The notes under the pieces: generated by a model
Database searches by the model: none
The model's input: the letters and a program-made list of their open reading frames with translations, nothing else
What the model was told of the DNA's origin: nothing
Shown: positions 1 through 33,325 of the stretch, piece after piece
Position numbering within the stretch: the first letter of the stretch is position 1
Layout: each line of letters begins with the position of its first letter
Origin: Chloroflexota bacterium
GTDB taxonomy: Bacteria; Chloroflexota; Dormibacteria; CF-121
Length of the DNA: 34,648 nucleotides
Reading direction: 5' to 3'
Assembly (NCBI GenBank): GCA_005880395.1
Contig: VBHQ01000153.1
Span: forward strand, 1 to 34,648
Translations under genes and position numbers: made by a program

Positions 1-339
1 AACTGTCAGCCGCTCCTCTGCGTTCAACGGCCGTTGCTGCACGATCCGGTTATTGACATGGACCAGGCCGGGTAGCGGGAATGGAAAGGTGGCGTCAACC
101 ATGAGCGTCACGGCAGCAGGAAACCCAAGAATGTGCGGATATGTTGGCGGCAGGACGTCCGATTGCCGGAAGCCGCAGACATCGGCGTAGCTCGCCAGGT
201 TTTGGCGATCGATCGACAGATCTGGCAGCTCGTATGAGGTATCGGGAAGGCTCTCGGCGTGGCGGCCGCGCGCGGTGATGGCCGCCTTCGCGTAAAGGCG
301 CCCAAGGGTCGGCCGCTGCTCGAGCCGGCGGACGGTCAT
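1..339 (-). CDS. htdX: MaoC-like 3-hydroxyacyl-thioester dehydratase, 3' end cut by window edge
   Basis: The 113 visible N-terminal codons start with MTVRRLEQRP and include the stretch LPPTYPHILGFPAAVTLMVD, typical of the N-terminal half of double hot-dog MaoC proteins such as mycobacterial HtdX (Rv0241c). Such enzymes hydrate enoyl-thioesters or dehydrate 3-hydroxyacyl-thioesters in the cytoplasm. The catalytic Asp/His hydratase motif lies in the C-terminal half, beyond the window, so catalytic competence cannot be judged. The ATG (337-339) overlaps the TGA of the upstream reductase gene as ATGA, which implies translational coupling. Order and partners match the mycobacterial htdX-fabG4-fadA2 cluster. 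Identification rests on both sequence and neighbours; the exact acyl substrate is unknown. Confidence 0.8.
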   Translation of the reverse strand, partial: MTVRRLEQRPTLGRLYAKAAITARGRHAESLPDTSYELPDLSIDRQNLASYADVCGFRQSDVLPPTYPHILGFPAAVTLMVDATFPFPLPGLVHVNNRIVQQRPLNAEERLTV

Positions 340-1634
340 GCCCCGAGAATGCTCTGACCGCAGACCCGAACGACCTGACCGTTCACGCCGCCGCTGCCGG
401 GTTGAGCGAGCCACGCAACCGTCTCCGCGACATCGACTGGAAGGCCACCCTGGTTGAGACTGTTGATCCGCCGGCCGATCTCCCGCGTAGCAAACGGCAT
501 CGCCTTCGTCATAGCGGTCTCGATGAACCCGGGAGCGACCGCGTTGATAGTCGCGGCGCGTTTGGCCATCAGCGGTGCCATGGCCTGAACCATCCCGATG
601 ATCCCAGCTTTGCTTGCCGCGTAATTCGTCTGACCGCGATTGCCGGCGATGCCGCTGGTCGAGGAAATGCAAATTACCCGCGCGTTGTCCCGGAGGACTT
701 TCTGTTCAACGAGCGCCTTGTTGATGCGGATCTGCGCCTGCAGGTTCACATTCAGGACGCTGGTCCACTGCTCGGGCGTCATGTTGACCAGCGATCGATC
801 TCGAGTGATGCCGGCGTTATGGACGAACACGTCAACGCCGCCGTAACGATCGACCAAATGCTTTGCGATGCGCTGCGGCGCGTCGTCGGCTGTGATATCG
901 ACTTGCAATGCGGTACCGCCAAGTCGGTTGGCGACCTCAGTCAGAGTCGCGCCCTGCGCGGGCACATCGGCGACGACGACCGTGGCCCCGTCCCGCGCGA
1001 GCGTCTCGGCGATGGCGGCGCCAATCCCTCTGGCGGCGCCAGTGACCACGGCGACTCGATCTTTAAGCGGGTGCTCCCAGTCCTGAGTCGGAACAGGTTT
1101 GGCCGGTCGAATGCGGATGACCTGACCGTCCACATAGGCTGAACGACCCGAAAGGAAGAAACGCAGCGTCGACTCGAGGACGGTCTCAGCGCCTTCCGCC
1201 ACATACATAAGGTTGGCCGTCGATCCGAGTCGCGCCTCCTTTCCGGCAGAGCGAATGAATCCATCGAGCGCCCGTTGCGTCGCCGAGGCTTCCGGCTCGG
1301 AGCAATCCTCCGGGGGAGTACCGAAGAGAATCAGCCGCCCTGAGGGCCGCAGATTGCGAAAGGTCTGCGAAGTGAACGCATGGAGTTTGCCCAGGTCTGC
1401 GATAGCGCGCATGGCAGTGCCGTCGAAGAGGATGGCCGCCCAGCGAGAGCTCCCACCCTCCCCCGCAGCGGGGGAGGGAGAGGAAGGCGAGGGGATTACT
1501 GCAGAGAGAACATCGCGGACGCGGCCGCCTGCGGAGGCGATCAAGACCGGTCCATCGACTAGCGGGTGGCCGGGTTGGTAGCGCCTCAGCCGGGCGGCTT
1601 CAGGGAGACCCGGAACTTTGACCTTGAGCTTCAC
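336..1634 (-). CDS. fabG4: FabG4-type two-domain 3-oxoacyl-thioester reductase (SDR)
   Basis: 432 aa from a GTG that overlaps the thiolase stop as GTGA. A longer reading frame exists upstream but lies entirely inside fadA2. The N-terminal part (about residues 1-200) is the flavodoxin-like domain that marks high-molecular-weight FabG4 (Rv0242c type), containing the conserved SAYVDGQV near its end. The C-terminal part is a classical SDR reductase with TGAARGIG for dinucleotide binding, HNAGITRD, the catalytic Ser and YAASK, and the family ending RVCGQ. It reduces 3-oxoacyl-thioesters, and NADH use is known for FabG4. Oddity: residues about 48-63 (PSPSSPSPAAGEGG) come from a GC palindrome at 1456-1478 placed in a loop of the N-terminal domain; the SDR core is untouched. 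Confidence 0.9.
   Translation of the reverse strand: MKLKVKVPGLPEAARLRRYQPGHPLVDGPVLIASAGGRVRDVLSAVIPSPSSPSPAAGEGGSSRWAAILFDGTAMRAIADLGKLHAFTSQTFRNLRPSGRLILFGTPPEDCSEPEASATQRALDGFIRSAGKEARLGSTANLMYVAEGAETVLESTLRFFLSGRSAYVDGQVIRIRPAKPVPTQDWEHPLKDRVAVVTGAARGIGAAIAETLARDGATVVVADVPAQGATLTEVANRLGGTALQVDITADDAPQRIAKHLVDRYGGVDVFVHNAGITRDRSLVNMTPEQWTSVLNVNLQAQIRINKALVEQKVLRDNARVICISSTSGIAGNRGQTNYAASKAGIIGMVQAMAPLMAKRAATINAVAPGFIETAMTKAMPFATREIGRRINSLNQGGLPVDVAETVAWLAQPGSGGVNGQVVRVCGQSILGA
1452..1490. repeat. GC palindrome copy A, inside fabG4
   Basis: Perfect 11-bp inverted repeat CCCTCCCCCGC / GCGGGGGAGGG at 1456-1466 and 1468-1478 with a one-base loop, flanked by C-rich sequence on the left and G-rich sequence on the right. 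It is translated on the minus strand as PSPAAGEGG without breaking the frame. Its orientation within the family is ambiguous because both flanks resemble the C-rich arm. Confidence 0.85.
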
Positions 1635-2911
1635 GCTGCTTCGAGGATGGCGACGACACCCTGGCCACCTGCCGCGCAGATCGAGATGAGCCCGCGTCCG
1701 GAGCCTTTTTCGGCGAGAAGTTTCGCCAGCGTGGCGACGATCCGCCCACCGGTCGCAGCAAACGGGTGTCCTACTGCGAGCGAAGAGCCATTGACATTGA
1801 GCTTCGAGCGATCGATCGGCCCAAGTGGCTTCTCGAGGCAGAGGCGCTCTTTGCAATACCTCGAATCCTCCCAGGCTTTGAGTGTCGCCAGGACCGTGGA
1901 GGCAAAGGCCTCGTGGATTTCGTAGAAATCGAAGTCCTGCAGGGTGAGCTTGTTTCGCGCGAGCAGGCGGGGGACGGCGTAGGCGGGGGCCATGAGGAGG
2001 CCCTCACCGCCGTAGACATAGTCGACGGCGGCCGTTTCGGCATCGACCGTGTGAGCCAGAACAGGAAGGCGGTGTTGCTTGGCCCATTCGTCCGTGCTGA
2101 GAAGAACGGTCGCGGCGCCATCGGATAGCGGAGTGGAATTTCCGGCAGTCATGGTGGCGTCGCCGTTCTTGCCGAAGACTGGGCGCAGCTTTGCGAGTGA
2201 TTCCATACTGGCATCGGGACGTAACGTTTGATCGCGCTGCAGACCGAGGTACGGCGTGACCAGGTCATCGAAGAAGCCGCGCTTCCACGCCGCGGCGAGA
2301 TGCTGATGGCTGGCAACAGCGAGCTCATCCTGTGCTTCGCGGCTGATCTCCCACTCGCGCGCCGTGATGGCGGCATGCTCGCCCATCGACAGGCCCGTTC
2401 TTGGCTCGGCATTGCGCGGCGTCTCGGGAACGATCTGCCCGGGGCGCAATTTGCGCAATAGCGCCAGGCGCTGTGGCATCGATTTGGCGCTGTTGATCTG
2501 GAGGAGGACGCGGCGAAGGTCCTCGTTGACGGCGATCGGCGCGTCGCTGGCCGTGTCCACCCCACCCGAAACGCCGCTCTCGACCTGGCCGAGCGCGATC
2601 TTGTTCGCGACATGAATCGTGGTTTCCAGGCCGGTGCCGCACGCCTGCTGGACGTCGTAGGCCGGCGTCCATGGCGAGAGGCGGGACCCAAGAACGACCT
2701 CGCGGGTGAGGTTGAAGTCGCGACTGTGCTTCAGCACCGCGCCTGCGGCGACCTCACCGAGGCGCTGCCCTTGCAAACCAAAGCGAGCGATCAAGCCGTC
2801 GAGCGCCGCGGTCAGCATGTCCTGGTTGGAGGCTCGGGCATAGGGGCCGCCGGCGCGGGCGAAGGGGATTCGGTTGCCGCCGAGGATGGCGGCGCGGCGC
2901 AGGTCAGCCAT
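1631..2911 (-). CDS. fadA2: Acetyl-CoA acyltransferase (thiolase), FadA2-like
   Basis: 426 aa, normal length for a degradative thiolase. The nucleophile is in QQACGTGLE (Cys91). The other catalytic elements are HEAFA, the GHPFAATGG loop (His382) and the C-terminal SICAAGGQG (Cys412), so all expected active-site residues are present. It catalyses CoA-dependent cleavage, or the reverse condensation, of 3-ketoacyl-CoA in the cytoplasm. The stop overlaps the fabG4 GTG, and the gene heads a three-gene minus-strand operon with the reductase and the MaoC hydratase. The acyl-CoA oxidase-like gene starts only 39 bp away on the other strand. Together the four genes could carry out all the chemistry of one beta-oxidation round, or part of a reverse cycle. 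Confidence 0.93.
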   Translation of the reverse strand: MADLRRAAILGGNRIPFARAGGPYARASNQDMLTAALDGLIARFGLQGQRLGEVAAGAVLKHSRDFNLTREVVLGSRLSPWTPAYDVQQACGTGLETTIHVANKIALGQVESGVSGGVDTASDAPIAVNEDLRRVLLQINSAKSMPQRLALLRKLRPGQIVPETPRNAEPRTGLSMGEHAAITAREWEISREAQDELAVASHQHLAAAWKRGFFDDLVTPYLGLQRDQTLRPDASMESLAKLRPVFGKNGDATMTAGNSTPLSDGAATVLLSTDEWAKQHRLPVLAHTVDAETAAVDYVYGGEGLLMAPAYAVPRLLARNKLTLQDFDFYEIHEAFASTVLATLKAWEDSRYCKERLCLEKPLGPIDRSKLNVNGSSLAVGHPFAATGGRIVATLAKLLAEKGSGRGLISICAAGGQGVVAILEAA

Positions 2912-12265: not shown

Positions 12266-12297
12266 GTCGCTTATGTAACCAAATGCCTCGGTCACGC

Positions 12298-12326
12298 TTG
12301 CGCCAGGAATCCGATACCGGTAGACT
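12298..12326 (+). promoter_or_regulatory. Candidate sigma-70 promoter, possibly leaderless
   Basis: TTGCGC (12298-12303), a 17-bp spacer, and TAGACT (12321-12326). The preferred ATG of the propeller gene begins at 12337, ten bases after the -10 box, with no Shine-Dalgarno site between, so the transcript would have almost no leader. Both boxes match the consensus only partly. Confidence 0.4.
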
Positions 12327-12336
12327 GGCCCGCGAC

Positions 12337-14889
12337 ATGCAGGTCCGCCGTCTGATCCAAGGATCGCTCGTGGGTGTGAGCATGCTGGCGGCGTCGTCGA
12401 TCTTGCCGACTGCGGCCGATTGGCCGACCTATCACCAGGACAATTCGCGGGCCGGCTACGACTCGAGCCAGCCCAACTTCGCGAGCGTCAGCCCAGGATG
12501 GTCGAGCGCAAGCCTAACCGGGATCGTCATGGCGTCACCGGTCGTGGTTGGTAGTCACGTCTACGTCGCCACCGAGGGCAATCACATCTATGACTTCGAC
12601 ACTGCCTCCGCGACGCCGGGCACGCCGATCTGGGATGTGTTCGTGGGAACGGCCGTCACGAGTGGTTGGGGGTGTGGCCAGGCGTTCGGCGGGATCACGA
12701 GCACGCCGGTTGCGGATGCTGCAGGCAATCGCCTGTACGTGTCGGGATTGCTAAATGTTGGCGGAGCCGTCAATTACTACCTGACCACGCTGAACCTGAC
12801 AACCGGCGCCGTCATCGCGCAAACGAAACTGGCGCCTGCCGGCTTGAACTGGGTCTACAACGGGCAGCGGGGCGCGCTGACGCTGGCCAACGGATATGTC
12901 TACGTGCCATTTGGCGGCCGCGACGGCGACTGCGGCACCTATCACGGATGGATTCTCGGGGTCAATGCCGGCACCCAAGCCCTGATCAGCTTTGAGACCG
13001 ATACGGCCGTCAACGGGACGCCGTTCTGGGCCACGGGCGGACTCGCGGTTGACTCCACAACCGGCGACATCCTGGGTGCGACCGGGAACAGCGGCTGTCC
13101 GTCGCAGCCCCACCAGACGCAAAGCGTGCTGCGATTGTCGCCGACTCTCGCCTTGCTTGATAGCTTCACCGAGCCCGACTGGCACAACAACACGTGTTTC
13201 GATGTCGATCTTGGTTCCGTGGCGCCACTTGTCCTTGGTGGCGGATATGGCTTCATCGTCGGCAAGCAAAGCATTGGCTACGTCATCCGCATCAACAGCC
13301 TGGGTGGTGTCGGTGGGCAGGCGTTTCCGCCGAACAACAACCTTGCCGCAGGCGACGTCTGCAACGGCGCTATGGCCTTCGGCGCCACGGCCTACGCGCC
13401 GCCCTACATCATTGTTCCCTGCGCCAACGGACTGGTCGCGCTGAACTACAACCCGGCGGGACCGTCGTTCTCCGTAGCCTGGCGCGGTCCGAACTTCTGG
13501 GCGACCCCGCCAATCGTGGCGGGAGGCGCGGCCTGGACGCTCGATACCGGCGGGAGCGGGCTGTACGCATTTGATCTGGCAACCGGGGCATTGCGATATC
13601 AGAGCCCGGCGATTAGCGTCAATCATTTCGCTTCGCCCTCCGAGTCAGCCAACACCGTCTTCGTTCCGGGAAGCAATCGCCTGCTGACATACTCGATGCT
13701 GGCATGTCCGAGCGCCCCCGCATACACGGGCTACTTCAACTGGTACGACACCGCGAGCAGCGGCATGTACGTCGACAACGTTCATGTCGTCAACCCAGGG
13801 GCCACTAACGCGGTTGGCTGCATCACTCTGTCCGGCGGCGGAACCCTCGGCTTCAATCTAAGCCCGGGCCAGGAGGGTTATTACCACTTTCCACAGGGAA
13901 CCATCGGCGGACCTCTAACGGTTCAATCTTCTGCGCGCATCATCCCCTCGCAGCGGGTGCTGTACGATCACTCCTTCAACGAAGTGGCCGCCAGCACCGC
14001 GGCTGATGCCGCGATGACTTCGTACTTCAACTGGTACGACAAGGCCAGCGCCGGAATGTTCGTGGACAATATTCACCTGCTGAATCCATCCACCACAACC
14101 TCGAGTGGAACGATCACCATTCCAGGGGCCGCGCCCCTGAGTTTTTCCGTTGGCGCGGGGCAGGAAGGCTATTACTCATTCCCCAACGGCACGATCGGCG
14201 GTCCCGTAACCGTGGCCGTCAGCAGCGGTCCCGCCGTGATCGCCTCCCAGCGGGTCATCTACTACGGATCCTTCAACGAAGTCCGGGCTCGGCCCGCAAG
14301 CGCAGCCGCCACCACTTCCTACTTCAACTGGTATGACCGACAAAGCGCCGGTATGCGCGTCGACAACGTTCACATTCTGAACCCGGGTGCCACGGCGGCG
14401 AGCGGGACGGTTGCCATCAGCGGCGGGCCGAGTCAGAACTTCAGCGTGGCCGCCGGTCAGGAGCAGTTTTATAGCTTCCCGGCGGGAACGATCGGTGGGC
14501 CAATCACGGTCATGGTGACATCCGGTCCGGGGGTCGTCGCCTCCCAACGCGTGGAGTACTACCAATCATTTAACGAGGTGTCGGCGTCTCAGCTGTCGGA
14601 TGCCTCGACCAAGTCCTACTTCAATTGGTATGACCGCCAAAGCACCGGAATGAGCGTCGATAATGTCCACGTCCTTAATCCCGGAGCAAGCACATCGACG
14701 GGGACGATCACGTTGCCCGGCCTACAGGACAACTTCAGCGTGGGAGCGGGACAGGAAGCCTACTACAGCTTCGCGCAGGGAACCATCGGAGGACCGGTGG
14801 TCGTCACGGTCACGGGAGGCCCAGCCGTGATCGCGACGCAGCGGGTCATTTTCTTCCAGTCGTTCAACGAGGTTGCGGCCGCCTCTTGA
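12337..14889 (+). CDS. Exported quinoprotein-like beta-propeller with four SFNEV-type repeats
   Basis: 850 aa from ATG 12337. An upstream in-frame ATG (12283) would add a charged extension before the signal peptide and is less likely. Signal peptide QVRRLIQGSLVGVSMLAASS, cleavage near PTAA. Residues about 30-460 are a PQQ-like (WD-type) propeller starting WPTYHQDNSRAGYD, with blade phrases ASPVVVGSHVYVATEGNHIY, GLYAFDLATGALRY and many Cys residues. No PQQ ligand set could be verified. Four repeats of about 97-99 residues follow, each beginning YFNWYDxxSxGMxVDNVHxLNP and ending with GTIGGPVxV, ASQRVxYYxSFNEV. This repeat type is frequent in Chloroflexota surface proteins. No sortase motif or C-terminal membrane anchor is seen, so it is probably secreted. 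Confidence 0.85.
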   Translation: MQVRRLIQGSLVGVSMLAASSILPTAADWPTYHQDNSRAGYDSSQPNFASVSPGWSSASLTGIVMASPVVVGSHVYVATEGNHIYDFDTASATPGTPIWDVFVGTAVTSGWGCGQAFGGITSTPVADAAGNRLYVSGLLNVGGAVNYYLTTLNLTTGAVIAQTKLAPAGLNWVYNGQRGALTLANGYVYVPFGGRDGDCGTYHGWILGVNAGTQALISFETDTAVNGTPFWATGGLAVDSTTGDILGATGNSGCPSQPHQTQSVLRLSPTLALLDSFTEPDWHNNTCFDVDLGSVAPLVLGGGYGFIVGKQSIGYVIRINSLGGVGGQAFPPNNNLAAGDVCNGAMAFGATAYAPPYIIVPCANGLVALNYNPAGPSFSVAWRGPNFWATPPIVAGGAAWTLDTGGSGLYAFDLATGALRYQSPAISVNHFASPSESANTVFVPGSNRLLTYSMLACPSAPAYTGYFNWYDTASSGMYVDNVHVVNPGATNAVGCITLSGGGTLGFNLSPGQEGYYHFPQGTIGGPLTVQSSARIIPSQRVLYDHSFNEVAASTAADAAMTSYFNWYDKASAGMFVDNIHLLNPSTTTSSGTITIPGAAPLSFSVGAGQEGYYSFPNGTIGGPVTVAVSSGPAVIASQRVIYYGSFNEVRARPASAAATTSYFNWYDRQSAGMRVDNVHILNPGATAASGTVAISGGPSQNFSVAAGQEQFYSFPAGTIGGPITVMVTSGPGVVASQRVEYYQSFNEVSASQLSDASTKSYFNWYDRQSTGMSVDNVHVLNPGASTSTGTITLPGLQDNFSVGAGQEAYYSFAQGTIGGPVVVTVTGGPAVIATQRVIFFQSFNEVAAAS
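13732..14886 (+). repeat. Four tandem ~98-codon surface repeats
   Basis: Units begin at 13732, 14023, 14320 and 14617, each with YFNWYD, and end with SFNEV. Spacing is 291, 297 and 297 bp. Unit 1 is the most divergent (lacks the SGP before the ASQRV-equivalent), while units 3 and 4 share YDRQS and are closest. This is consistent with stepwise duplication from the C-terminal side. Confidence 0.85.
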
Positions 14890-15523: not shown

Positions 15524-16873
15524 ATGACACGGCGAGGAAACGAAATCGCAAAGACGGCCTTACTTGCGGCGAGCATCGCCGTCATCGGGACGCTTTACCT
15601 CGTCGCGATCCTGAACGCGGTGCCGCCGCATCCGGACCTGGTTATCTACGCGCGCGGGGCCAAGGACCTGGTCGCCGGGCGGCCGCTCTATGAGGCCTAT
15701 CTGCAGAGTCCGGGCGACCCCACGCTCCGCTACGGCTTCATCTACCCGCCTCTCTTCGCCATCCTGCTCCTGCCGCTGAGCCTGGTGCCGCCAGCCGCCC
15801 TGCCAACCCTGTGGCTGATCGCGACCCATAGCGCGCTGGCATTCGCCTTCTGGCTGGTGTTTCGCCGGCTTGCGGTCGGGCGCACCGTGACGCTGTTCGC
15901 CATCGCCCTGACGCTGGCGTTCTACCCGCTGTGGGTGGAAGGGTCGCAGGCCCAGGCGAACCTGCCAATCCTGCTGCTGGTCACCCTTGGTCTTGTGGGC
16001 ATCAGCGACGGTAAGCCCCGGTCCGGCATCTGGTTGGGCCTGGCCGCTGCGCTGAAGCTGACGCCAGCTCTATTGATCCTGTGGCTTCTATGGGAACGCC
16101 GGTTTCGGGCCGCCGCCTGGATCGCGGGTGGGTTTGTCGCGTTCAGCGCGGTCGCGGCCATGCTGCGGCCAGCGGACACCCTGACCTATGCGACGAGGGT
16201 GTTGCCGATGCTGGCGGGTGGCACTGCTTATTACAGCAACCAGTCGATCGCGGGGTTGGTAGCCCGACTGTTCAAGGCAAATCCGTACACAACGCCGGTG
16301 GTTCAGCTGCCGTGGGAGCCGATCCTGGTGCTGATCGTGGTTGCGGGGCTTATCGGCTACTGGATTCTTAGAGCCCCCAACCTGACCCTCCCCAAGAGGG
16401 GGAGGGAGTCGCACAAAGCTAGGGACTTCTCAGGATTAACCTTTCTGCCACTCCTGCCCCTGGCGTCGGCGGTGAGTTGGGAGCATCACCTGGTAATCCT
16501 GTTGCCCCTGGTATGGGTGCTTATCGCCAGGGTCCCCTCCTTGACCTTCCCCCGCAAATGGGGGAGGGAAATGGCCAGGCTCGGCGTTCTGGGCGTGGCC
16601 CTCCTCTGCTTGCTGGCAATCCCACATTTGCCGATCGGGCCGCCGTACGCCAGCGACTTCGCTCGCGCCGCGCATACCACGAATCCGCTGCTCATTGCCG
16701 GGGCAAATCGCTTGCTTGCTGGAACCCTGATTCTGTTTGCCGCAGCCCCCTGGATGCTGCGCGTAGCGGCCCCCACCCTGACCCTCCCCCGCAAGCGGGG
16801 GAGGGAAAGAGGCGTTGCACAGCAGTGGCGTCCAAGCACGTGGTCATCCTCGGAGCTGGACCGGCCGGCCTGA
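15524..16873 (+). CDS. GT87 (DUF2029) polyprenyl-phosphate-dependent mannosyltransferase-like membrane enzyme
   Basis: 449 aa from ATG 15524 (GTG 15521 and TTG 15506 also in frame). About ten membrane helices. Family features: early extracytoplasmic PHPDLVIYARGAKDL with the Asp, GFIYPPLFAILLLPLSLVPP, QAQANLPILLLVTLG, ALKLTPALLILWLLWERR and NQSIAGLVARLF. Enzymes of this class transfer mannose or a related sugar from a lipid carrier on the outer face of the membrane. Oddity: three in-frame copies of the GC palindrome encode residues about 284-295 (APNLTLPKRGRE), 337-349 (VPSLTFPRKWGRE) and 416-428 (APTLTLPRKRGRE). They fall between hydrophobic helices or at the C-terminus, so the core could survive. 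The 3' end overlaps the next gene's start by 49 bp, probably because the third copy extended the frame. Confidence 0.83.
   Translation: MTRRGNEIAKTALLAASIAVIGTLYLVAILNAVPPHPDLVIYARGAKDLVAGRPLYEAYLQSPGDPTLRYGFIYPPLFAILLLPLSLVPPAALPTLWLIATHSALAFAFWLVFRRLAVGRTVTLFAIALTLAFYPLWVEGSQAQANLPILLLVTLGLVGISDGKPRSGIWLGLAAALKLTPALLILWLLWERRFRAAAWIAGGFVAFSAVAAMLRPADTLTYATRVLPMLAGGTAYYSNQSIAGLVARLFKANPYTTPVVQLPWEPILVLIVVAGLIGYWILRAPNLTLPKRGRESHKARDFSGLTFLPLLPLASAVSWEHHLVILLPLVWVLIARVPSLTFPRKWGREMARLGVLGVALLCLLAIPHLPIGPPYASDFARAAHTTNPLLIAGANRLLAGTLILFAAAPWMLRVAAPTLTLPRKRGRERGVAQQWRPSTWSSSELDRPA
16374..16407. repeat. GC palindrome copy E, in frame in GT87
   Basis: CCCTCCCC (16386-16393), loop AAGAG, GGGGAGGG (16399-16406), preceded by CCCCCAACCTGA. 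Read as APNLTLPKRGRE. Confidence 0.88.
16532..16570. repeat. GC palindrome copy F, in frame in GT87
   Basis: CCTTCCCCC (16545-16553) and GGGGGAGGG (16560-16568) with one mismatch, preceded by TCCCCTCCTTGA. Read as VPSLTFPRKWGRE, the same frame as copies E and G. Confidence 0.88.
16769..16807. repeat. GC palindrome copy G, at GT87 3' end
   Basis: Perfect 11-bp arms CCCTCCCCCGC (16782-16792) and GCGGGGGAGGG (16795-16805) with loop AA, preceded by CCCCCACCCTGA; the best-preserved copy. Read as APTLTLPRKRGRE just before the end of the GT87 frame and 20 bases before the flavoprotein start. Confidence 0.9.
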
Positions 16874-20068: not shown

Positions 20069-21517
20069 ATGGCCAGCAAGGCCATGGCCGGCGGGCTTTT
20101 CCTACTGCTCGCCTTTATCTACTGGGTCTGCGTCCGACGCTACCTGCCGTACGACGGAGACATGATGTTCCGCGTCACGAAGAGTCTGGTCACGGCGCAT
20201 AGCCTCCGGATTCATGATCCCGTGCTGCACCTGAACGAGCCGTACTCGTTTTACGGGCTGGCCGTCTCGCTGCTCCTGGTTCCTTTCTTTGTGGTTGGGC
20301 AACTGCTGTTTGGCGATGGCACGGCGCTGATCCCGACGTTCGAACCGATCGTGACCGCATTGACGGTGGTTGCGCTGTTGGGCCTGCTGGTCCAGCTTGG
20401 TGTTTCCTGGAAGCGAGCGTTTGCGGTTGGTCTGCTCTATGCGTTTGGAAGCCTCGCCTGGGCGTACAGCGGCGTCCTTTACAGCGAACCGCTCGTTGGG
20501 CTATGCATCGTGGCCAGCCTGCTCTTCGTTCGCCGCTACGAACGAGGGAGCCGGTGGTGGCTGCTCGCCGCAGGCGGCGCGGCCGGCCTCGCGCTGCTGG
20601 CGCGCTGGGATTCCATGCTGCTTGTGGTGGCCCCTGTGTCGGTCTACCTGGTTTACGCGCTCTACCGCGACGTCACTCGATCAATGCGGGAGCGGTTGGT
20701 GGCCTTCGCTCTGCTCGCATCGCCTATCGCGATCGTGACGGCCGTCAACCTTGCCTATGACCTGTTCCGGTACGGGCGTCCGCTGGCCAGCCCGTACATA
20801 GGAACCTTCCAGTTCTCTACACCGCTGCCGGTCGGTGTCTTCGGATTGCTGTTCAGTCCCGGCGCCGGTCTCATCGTCTACGTCCCCCTGGTGTTGCTTG
20901 GCGGTTTCGGGGTTAGGGCGTTATACCAGCGCTGGCCGAGGATAACGCTCCTGATCGCCGGATTGGTCGCAGTTCGCCTCGCTTTCTACGGACAGTGGTT
21001 CGGATGGGATGGGGGAATCACCTTCGGTCCAAGGTTCTTGGTCCCGATTGTGCCGCTCCTTTTCGTGCCGATCGCTTTCATCCCCCACCCTGCCCTGCCC
21101 CAGAGGGGGAGGGCAATTGTCATGCTGGCGCTGACAATATTGTTGAGCTCGCTGAGCATTGGTGTCGAGCTGTTGAACCAGATCGTTCCATATGGCCAGT
21201 ACTACACGAGCGTGGCGACGGCACTGAACACGGCTGCGCGGCACGCCTGCCCGGGCTGTCCGCTGTGGCAGGTTGTACAGCTGACGACAGGCCGGCTGGA
21301 TTACGACTGGCAGTTCATCCCTCTCCACGGGCAACTGACGATGCTGCTTTCCGGCAGGATCGACCCGATCTGGCGCAACATCGCGCTTGTGGTTCCGATC
21401 CTGATCGCTGTCCTCGGATTTATCGGCTTCCGCCTTTTTCGCATGGCCGCGCGACTCGACCGGGAGGACCTGCAATTGGCTGCGGAGCAGCCTGGGCCCT
21501 TGGCGCGAGCCAGCTAA
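20069..21517 (+). CDS. GT-C family membrane glycosyltransferase (ArnT/PMT-like), unassigned
   Basis: 482 aa from ATG 20069, five bases after the preceding stop; in-frame starts further upstream overlap the GT2 domain. About eleven helices. Typical GT-C features are the early loop YLPYDGDMMFRVTKSLV with acidic residues, SLAWAYSGVLYSEP, LARWDSMLLVV, the FGLLFSPGAGLIVYVPL segment and GGITFGPRFLVPIVPLLF. The class moves sugars from polyprenyl-phosphate donors on the outer membrane face; the substrate is unknown. Residues about 338-349 (IPHPALPQRGRA) derive from a GC palindrome placed between two helices. The last four bases overlap the convergent NRAMP-like gene. Confidence 0.78.
   Translation: MASKAMAGGLFLLLAFIYWVCVRRYLPYDGDMMFRVTKSLVTAHSLRIHDPVLHLNEPYSFYGLAVSLLLVPFFVVGQLLFGDGTALIPTFEPIVTALTVVALLGLLVQLGVSWKRAFAVGLLYAFGSLAWAYSGVLYSEPLVGLCIVASLLFVRRYERGSRWWLLAAGGAAGLALLARWDSMLLVVAPVSVYLVYALYRDVTRSMRERLVAFALLASPIAIVTAVNLAYDLFRYGRPLASPYIGTFQFSTPLPVGVFGLLFSPGAGLIVYVPLVLLGGFGVRALYQRWPRITLLIAGLVAVRLAFYGQWFGWDGGITFGPRFLVPIVPLLFVPIAFIPHPALPQRGRAIVMLALTILLSSLSIGVELLNQIVPYGQYYTSVATALNTAARHACPGCPLWQVVQLTTGRLDYDWQFIPLHGQLTMLLSGRIDPIWRNIALVVPILIAVLGFIGFRLFRMAARLDREDLQLAAEQPGPLARAS
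21082..21114. repeat. GC palindrome copy H, in frame in GT-C gene
   Basis: CCCCCACCCTGCCCTGCCCC then AGAG and GGGGAGGGC, arms imperfect by one base. Read as HPALPQRGRA, the same reading frame as copies E, F and G. Confidence 0.85.
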
Positions 21518-23980: not shown

Positions 23981-24646
23981 TTATCGGGGGTTGGTCGCCA
24001 GGCGAAGCCCGAGCCCGACGAGCACGACGCCGGTGGTCGCCTCCATGGCTCGTCGAATGCGGTCACGGCGGAGGAAGTCGCCGATACGCGAGACGACGAT
24101 CGCGTAGAGCGTCAGCCACGTGAGCGTGATGCTGCAGAAGATGGCGCCAAGAAGCAGCAGGCCCAGGAACGACGCGGCACTGCGGGTCACAAACTGCGGG
24201 AGCAGGCTGAGAAAGAAGACGACGATCTTCGGATTGCTGAGGTTGCTGAAGAGGCCCTGACGGTAGGCGGCCTTCAGCCGGAGGCCCCCACCCTGCCCTC
24301 CCTCAGAGGGGGAGGGTGAACCCGGGGCGGGTGACGGTGAACGCGGGGCGGGTGACGGTCGTTTGTAGGCCGAGTAGAGGGCCTGAAGGCCGAGAAACAC
24401 GAGGTAGGCGGCGCCAATCAGCCGGACGGCGAGAAACAGAGGCTGCGAGGCGACGATGAGCGCGGCCAGCCCGGCGCTGCTAGCGACAGTCCAGGTGGCA
24501 AGGCCGCTGACCACCCCGGCACCGGTGGCGATCCCGCCGCGGCGGCCGCCCACCAGCGTATTCCGGATCGTGAGCGCGGTGTCCTGGCCAGGCGTCGCGA
24601 TCACGAGAAACGCGATGCCGAGGAACGCCGCCAGATTCGTGATCAT
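23981..24646 (-). CDS. LysE/RhtB family exporter with repeat-derived loop
   Basis: 221 aa from ATG 24646; an upstream start at 24673 would cross into the divergent gene. Six helices; family signatures VIATPGQDTALTIRNTLVGG at the N-terminus and NLSNPKIVVFFLSLLPQFV in the middle. LysE proteins export amino acids or related compounds. Oddity: the cytoplasmic loop after helix 3 is expanded to about residues 96-121 (SPAPRSPSPAPGSPSPSEGG). It is built from a 21-bp tandem duplication (24315-24356) and a GC palindrome (24285-24316), both multiples that leave the frame intact. Function is plausibly retained because the loop is outside the helices. Confidence 0.88.
   Translation of the reverse strand: MITNLAAFLGIAFLVIATPGQDTALTIRNTLVGGRRGGIATGAGVVSGLATWTVASSAGLAALIVASQPLFLAVRLIGAAYLVFLGLQALYSAYKRPSPAPRSPSPAPGSPSPSEGGQGGGLRLKAAYRQGLFSNLSNPKIVVFFLSLLPQFVTRSAASFLGLLLLGAIFCSITLTWLTLYAIVVSRIGDFLRRDRIRRAMEATTGVVLVGLGLRLATNPR
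24285..24317. repeat. GC palindrome copy J, in frame in lysE-like gene
   Basis: CCCTCCCTC (24296-24304), loop AGA, GGGGGAGGG (24308-24316), one mismatch, preceded by GGCCCCCACCCTG. Read on the minus strand as SPSPSEGGQGGG, the same relative frame as copy A. Confidence 0.85.
24315..24356. repeat. 21-bp tandem duplication next to copy J
   Basis: Two adjacent copies (24315-24335, 24336-24356) of GGTGAAC(C/G)CGGGGCGGGTGAC differing at one base. It adds seven codons (SPAP[G/R]SP) to the LysE-like loop. Confidence 0.88.
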
Positions 24647-24654
24647 GCGTCCGC

Positions 24655-24660
24655 TACAGT
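24655..24660 (+). promoter_or_regulatory. Candidate -10 box of the small membrane protein gene
   Basis: TACAGT, eleven bases before ATG 24672, with no Shine-Dalgarno site in between; a near-leaderless transcript would result. No convincing -35 box. Confidence 0.3.
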
Positions 24661-24671
24661 GCCGAGCATAC

Positions 24672-25169
24672 ATGGCCTACTCCGCCGACAGCTGGCGCGA
24701 TTTTTATGTCATGACCGGCGGCGCGTCGGCGGCGTTGACGGGGCTGCTCTTCGTCGCGATGTCGATGCACGCGAAAGCGATCACAGACCACCCGCTGTAC
24801 GGGACGAGAGCCGTGGGAACTCTGATCTCGCTGCTGACTCAGCTCGCCCTTTCGGGTGCGGTTCTGGTACCGGGCCAATCGACCATGGCGGTAGGCATCG
24901 AGGTCGAGGTTGCGGCAGTCGCCTCCCTGATCTACACGGCCAATGCGATTTCCCGTAGCCGGAGAGCGCTGGGGCCGGACCGTCCTCGTGTACGGACGAT
25001 CCTCGAATCGGCCGGTGGGTTGATCTGGATCATCCTGTTCCTGGCCTCGGGGTTGAGTCTGATGCTGCGGACGGGCGGAGGGTTTTACCTGCTGGCGCTG
25101 GTGATGCTTTTCATGTTCGGCTGGAACGTCTACGTCTCCTGGGTATTGATCACCGAAGTCTCGGACTGA
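24672..25169 (+). CDS. Four-helix membrane protein, unknown function
   Basis: 165 aa from ATG 24672, starting 25 bp from the divergent exporter gene. N-terminal SADSWRDFYVMTGGASAAL and TGLLFVAMSMHA resemble a widespread family of small uncharacterised membrane proteins (FYxxxGxAxAALTGLLFVA). Predicted helices lie at about residues 12-34, 48-68, 72-92, 112-132 and 136-158, so four or five. No catalytic motif seen. No function is proposed; the divergent layout with the LysE-like gene may mean shared control. Confidence 0.78.
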   Translation: MAYSADSWRDFYVMTGGASAALTGLLFVAMSMHAKAITDHPLYGTRAVGTLISLLTQLALSGAVLVPGQSTMAVGIEVEVAAVASLIYTANAISRSRRALGPDRPRVRTILESAGGLIWIILFLASGLSLMLRTGGGFYLLALVMLFMFGWNVYVSWVLITEVSD

Positions 25170-33234: not shown

Positions 33235-33247
33235 GTTCTGGAGAGTT

Positions 33248-33325
33248 GTCGGCGCAAGTCTTTGCGGCCTGTCGGCCCAAATCTTTGCGGCCTGTCGGCC
33301 CAAATCTTTGCGGCCTGTCGGCCCA
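33248..33325. repeat. 23-bp tandem repeat, 3.4 copies
   Basis: Unit GTCGGCCCAAATCTTTGCGGCCT: copies at 33248-33270 (two differences), 33271-33293, 33294-33316 (identical) and a 9-base partial copy to 33325. Begins 13 bases after the GGDEF/EAL stop. Contiguous with no spacers, so not a CRISPR array. Confidence 0.95.

Follow-up and report, generated by a model that had tools for sequence, protein, structure and literature searches.

Internal copies of a short palindromic element leave one codon register unused in the protein genes of a Chloroflexota genus

How does a palindrome come to lie three times in a single protein gene, each time in the same reading frame? The question is raised by a window of 34,648 nucleotides (the whole stretch of DNA analysed here) from a Chloroflexota bacterium, in which one GT87 gene carries the copies named E, F and G and further copies lie in other genes (Table 1). 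A preliminary description of this DNA proposed that the shared frame reflects either selection for a tolerated, stop-free frame or a constraint on insertion. All three copies, at 16373-16808, are indeed read in the sense direction in frame S1, in which the arm CCCTCCCC starts at codon position 2, and the two copies on minus-strand genes, A and J, also agree with each other in encoding PSPxxGxGG. Two other repeats were seen in the window, an apparently intergenic run of tandem 23-bp units (TGTCGGCCCAAATCTTTGCGGCC) at 33247-33325 and a four-fold protein repeat of ~297 bp at 13717-14873 within a long ORF (12283-14889).

Table 1. Positions of the GT87 host gene and of the intragenic palindrome copies in the window.
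Feature	Position	Strand	Description
Host gene GT87 (PF09594)	15524..16873	+	Polytopic mannosyltransferase-like protein; Pfam E 8e-35; carries E, F, G
Copy E (A5 variant)	16373..16409	+	Sense frame S1, peptide APNLTLPKRGRE
Copy F (A8 variant)	16532..16571	+	Sense frame S1, peptide VPSLTFPRKWGRE
Copy G (A8 variant)	16769..16808	+	Sense frame S1, peptide APTLTLPRKRGRE
Copy H (n5 variant)	21081..21116	+	Sense frame S1, PHPALPQRGRA; putative glycosyltransferase gene 20069-21514
Copy J (n5 variant)	24284..24319	+	Antisense frame A0, PSPSEGGQGGG; LysE-type exporter gene 23984-24676 (minus strand)
Copy A (diverged/decayed leader)	about 1453..1481	-	Frame A0, PSPAAGEGG; FabG-like gene 339-1856 (minus strand)

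The alignment of copies defines a family of palindromes of about 36-41 nt with a G+C-rich consensus of about 36 or 39-40 nt, in which a 5' leader, GCCCCCACCCTG(A), gives the element its orientation and is followed by CCCTCCCCC-loop-GGGGGAGGG and AAAT; in the copy alignment the same stretch reads GCCCCCACCCTG(A)CCCTCCCCC-loop-GGGGGAGGGAAAT. The main variants are n5 and n8, which are without the A, and A5, A7 and A8, which read CTGA, where the numbers of n5 and n8 give the length of the loop (5 or 8) enclosed by arms of 8 nt. Perfect palindrome cores occur 66 times in the 2.74 Mb assembly of this genome against 1 for a reversed-pattern control, far above chance, and both size and copy number are those of REPs, that is, of 20-40 nt palindromes in high copy. 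The flanks show a weak preference, with purines just upstream and A/T downstream. An Rfam search with the element gave no match, and a literature search for the palindrome core string returned nothing relevant among the matches listed. The idea that lengths in multiples of three are selected within genes found no support, as the 36/39-nt class accounts for 32 of 38 in-frame copies and 122 of 163 extragenic ones.

That these copies are insertions is seen in the GT87 gene itself. Thirteen homologues were found in the same genus (~37-46% identity), and E, F and G are absent from every one of them. Copy E adds 11 aa relative to the homologues, in a loop between two predicted helices, and copy F adds ~6 aa net as a loop insert that partially overlaps a predicted helix edge. 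Copy G lies beyond the ancestral stop (the homologues terminate WLLRSR-stop) and is thus no inter-helix loop but a C-terminal extension, a tail which reaches the start of the next gene. The suggestion that the peptides sit between membrane helices is therefore borne out by E, but not by G and not cleanly by F. Homologues of the host of copy H are shorter at its position and lack the insert, and copy A is truly intragenic because the match of its host to the full-length equivalog NF006110 (3-oxoacyl-ACP reductase) spans the copy. Filled and empty orthologous sites were also found in many further genes, and most orthologues of the host genes are without the insert. The empty orthologous sites show, at the level of sequence comparison, that the intragenic copies are in-frame inserts. 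Target-site duplication is not clearly visible in filled/empty pairs of ~74-96% identity, because even the closest species pair differs by small indels that blur the boundaries. Some in-frame copies have been kept by descent in two species, namely those in argininosuccinate lyase (L012/L267), a sarcosine-oxidase-like protein (L291/L357) and a GH31 enzyme (L298/L350).

The host proteins are conserved and many of them are housekeeping enzymes: they include LeuRS, CysRS, argininosuccinate synthase, argininosuccinate lyase, MutL, D-Ala-D-Ala ligase (Ddl), a shikimate kinase/DHQ synthase fusion, a GH31 enzyme and COX1-CtaA-UbiA. Internal copies are positioned anywhere from 8 to 79% of ORF length; several occupy the linker from one Pfam domain to the next (CysRS, MutL, shikimate kinase/DHQ synthase), and others are inside domains. 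The reading frame continues through the copies in these conserved enzymes, and the function of the products is presumably intact. At two loci the element stands in a continuous ORF, between a luciferase-like monooxygenase and UbiA (L060:13228-15900) and between CtaA and UbiA (L065:12164-15481), and may have fused neighbouring genes there. At ~30 copies the upstream ORF ends inside the element or a few codons later (e.g., L103:5576, L371:2093, L090:4980), and there the C-terminus is often supplied by the element.

The frame question was then put to a census of 317 leader-bearing copies from seven main genomes of the genus and a few loci from two more; the sequence consisted of stretches around located copies, the genomes are incomplete MAGs, and ORFs were called in this analysis without use of annotation. 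Each copy was assigned its frame from the codon bias of the flanks only, with the element masked, and since 2,500 random 36-nt windows gave even phases, the classification carries no phase bias of its own. The strict set of in-frame internal copies numbers 46, distributed as S0 8, S1 10, S2 0, A0 20, A1 0 and A2 8. The rule is a conservative one: E, F, G and H in the window all fall short of it, and yet comparison with homologues places E, F and H inside their genes. Read on opposite strands, S2 and A1 amount to a single codon register, and this register is excluded from the internal copies. When every position in real genes is weighted by the target preference of the flanks, a null built on a weak flank motif, S2 and A1 together are expected at 27%, under which 0/46 has P = 5e-7; removal of three copies shared by descent (43 left) and a factor of 3 for the post hoc choice of register bring this to P ~4e-6. 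Frame use is thus non-random, as had been proposed, and equal use of all stop-free frames is not what the 46 copies display. The uniformity of sense copies, on the other hand, holds for E, F, G and H in the window but not for the genus, where S0 (8) and S1 (10) are both used; antisense copies are likewise divided, between A0 and A2. A product of chance or gene calling seems quite improbable to us. The first sample had comprised just six copies on MAG contigs, which would favour such an artefact; against it stand 46 copies over seven genomes, the even phases of the random windows and an outcome that holds at score thresholds from 2 to 7, the one exception being a weak S2 assignment at 2 and 3.

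Could the unused frames simply be those with stop codons? A filter of this kind does operate in one variant type: only 44% of CTGA-type copies are open in S0, and E, F and G share S1 because the CTGA carries a TGA in S0 and leaves S1. The stop-free frame invoked in the preliminary description is to this extent correct, but when the rejected frames are checked for stops, S2 and A1 prove to be open in 94-98% of extragenic copies and nevertheless empty. Stops cannot explain them, and as a full explanation the filter is refuted; we leave it hardly any probability.

The peptides themselves differ from frame to frame. S0 encodes APTLPSPxGGGK; S1 encodes PHPALPQRGRE or APTLTLPxRGRE, which are basic; A0, the commonest frame used, encodes FPSPSGGGQGGG, neutral, Gly-rich and not basic; and A2 encodes FPPPLGEGRVG. 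The peptides had been described as basic, which is right for S1 and wrong for A0. In the unused register, S2 would give PPPCPPPEGEG, with two polyproline runs, a Cys and acidic residues, and A1 would give ISLPLWGRAGWG, which is Trp-rich and for n5 the most hydrophobic of the six frames. Polyproline alone cannot account for the pattern, since A2 contains one PPP and is still used. Features of the S2/A1 peptides such as polyproline and hydrophobicity may be the cause of the exclusion. It is also conceivable that the peptides are useful, exapted as linkers or basic cytoplasmic loops, and that their frames are positively selected: the basic S1 peptide, the location of several copies in the linkers of CysRS, MutL and shikimate kinase/DHQ synthase and the maintenance of some copies across species would agree with this. 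Four chemically different peptides are used, however, with a neutral Gly-rich one the commonest, and the insert is missing from most orthologues, so that we regard positive selection as improbable.

The more serious alternative is that the mobilising enzyme has a preferred short target and meets it in a phase-biased manner within genes, such that insertions in S2/A1 are rarely made. A phase-biased target would indeed give S2 and A1 as the same register on opposite strands, and a weak flank preference is present. Further, orthologues of NAD(P)H-hydrate dehydratase in two species (L064:8446 and L088:2878) share an insertion site at which the two copies point in opposite directions (S1 and A2) and keep one register. 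Against this, the flank preference modelled over real genes still predicts S2 and A1 in the proportion given above, and the S2/A1 register does occur in gene-terminal copies, whose ORF ends within the element or soon after it and has less to lose, at 5/35 versus 0/46 for internal ones (Fisher P = 0.013). Because of this contrast, which is modest, the evidence leans towards selection rather than an insertion constraint, which we consider rather unlikely though the strongest of the competitors. The share of in-frame internal copies, 14.5% as compared with 54% for random windows, amounts to a ~3.7-fold depletion that fits selection against most internal copies, while an intergenic target preference would lower the share too. 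Among the few in-frame informative copies from other phyla, S2/A1 is used in 3/8 (one of the three has an odd loop length), and the exclusion may therefore be specific to the genus.

The reading that we favour, with a probability of roughly 0.6, is insertion in any phase and subsequent selection on the peptide that a copy encodes. The element, REP-like, mobile but non-autonomous and probably moved by a putative enzyme acting in trans, would insert throughout the genome. An intragenic copy would persist only where the net insert preserves the frame and the peptide is tolerated, tolerated peptides being flexible, polar and rich in Pro/Gly/Ser or Arg (S0, S1, A0, A2). The third register, S2/A1, would be purged despite being open, presumably by purifying selection on the peptide, and the CTGA variant would additionally lose S0 to its stop, so that sense copies are left with S1.

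The element is present in 15/15 genomes of the genus tested, with few copies in three further members of the family; in 23 genomes from other families of the class it is essentially absent, with one single match. Exact leader and palindrome were found as well in Alpha-, Beta-, Gamma- and Deltaproteobacteria, Nitrospirae, Chloroflexi, Acidobacteria, Planctomycetes and others, and the element recurs within several public MAGs of Chloroflexi from soil, CF_13 among them. Matches of 30 or more nt over leader and palindrome were seen in public contigs (L144-L258) of Azospirillum, Deltaproteobacteria, Nitrospirae, Chloroflexi and Phycisphaerales. So wide a phylum range suggests that a short element for which no mobiliser is known has spread horizontally, as far as sequence matches can tell. 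The Y1 tyrosine transposase or RAYT (PF01797) was rejected as mobiliser, none having been found in the genus (0/15 genomes, 75-95% complete, with 5/14 control genomes positive). It is likewise absent from 15/32 element-bearing genomes of other phyla, and no leader-bearing copies stood beside Y1 at 15 loci inspected. Among 216 copies, an unpaired GTAG end tag occurs at background and CGTC below background, which rules out identity with GTAG or CGTC REPs.

Rickettsia offers the best-documented cases of selfish palindromes inserted in frame; the present element forms a family apart from these, much shorter and with a wide taxonomic range. It is numerous enough to show, separately for each frame, what random peptides are tolerated by conserved enzymes, and the excluded register makes peptide selection versus insertion bias directly testable. 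More tentatively, and as a possibility to which we give less than even odds, palindromes of this cross-phylum kind, untagged, RAYT-less, 36/39 nt long and open in nearly all six frames, may repeatedly provide housekeeping proteins with loops, linkers and C-terminal tails of 11-13 aa, selection on the peptide having removed one register.

Among known systems, bacterial MITEs with fused ORFs such as ERIC, YPAL and NEMIS are non-autonomous and occur in frame in genes; they are about 100-200 nt long, and most of them are bounded by terminal inverted repeats and show target duplications (PMC2229807, PMC2759123). The present element is far shorter, and neither terminal inverted repeats nor clear target duplications were seen. 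Intragenic REPs of the GTAG and CGTC super-families come closer: in the portions of that report available, REPs are mostly extragenic, often at gene 3' ends and with an unpaired asymmetric end, some lie inside ORFs, even several per gene, and CGTC REPs are without a dedicated transposase (Di Nocera et al., 2013; PMC3733652), so that the absence of RAYT is not unique to our element. On that partial text, which held no codon-register analysis of intragenic REPs, the likeness covers a size of 20-40 nt, high copy, an asymmetric end, a mostly extragenic location, some copies in ORFs and gene 3' ends, and the difference lies in the missing tags and in the RAYT not found in the genus. Rickettsia palindromic elements, or RPEs (Ogata et al., 2000; RPE-1 is one of them), are described as palindromic and in frame in conserved genes, also extragenic, about 100-150 nt long and reported from Rickettsia and Wolbachia (PMC2229807, PMC10969869, PMC3767692). 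On these descriptions, RPEs share with the element in-frame palindromes in conserved protein genes of one genus, encoding a peptide that the host tolerates, with copies also outside genes. Insertion in frame, here in 46 copies, is thus RPE-like, but the element does not belong to the RPEs, being set apart from their descriptions, in size and in their Rickettsiales hosts, by its 36-41 nt, its G+C richness and its many phyla. By analogy, then, the element would work in the manner of RPEs and intragenic REPs.
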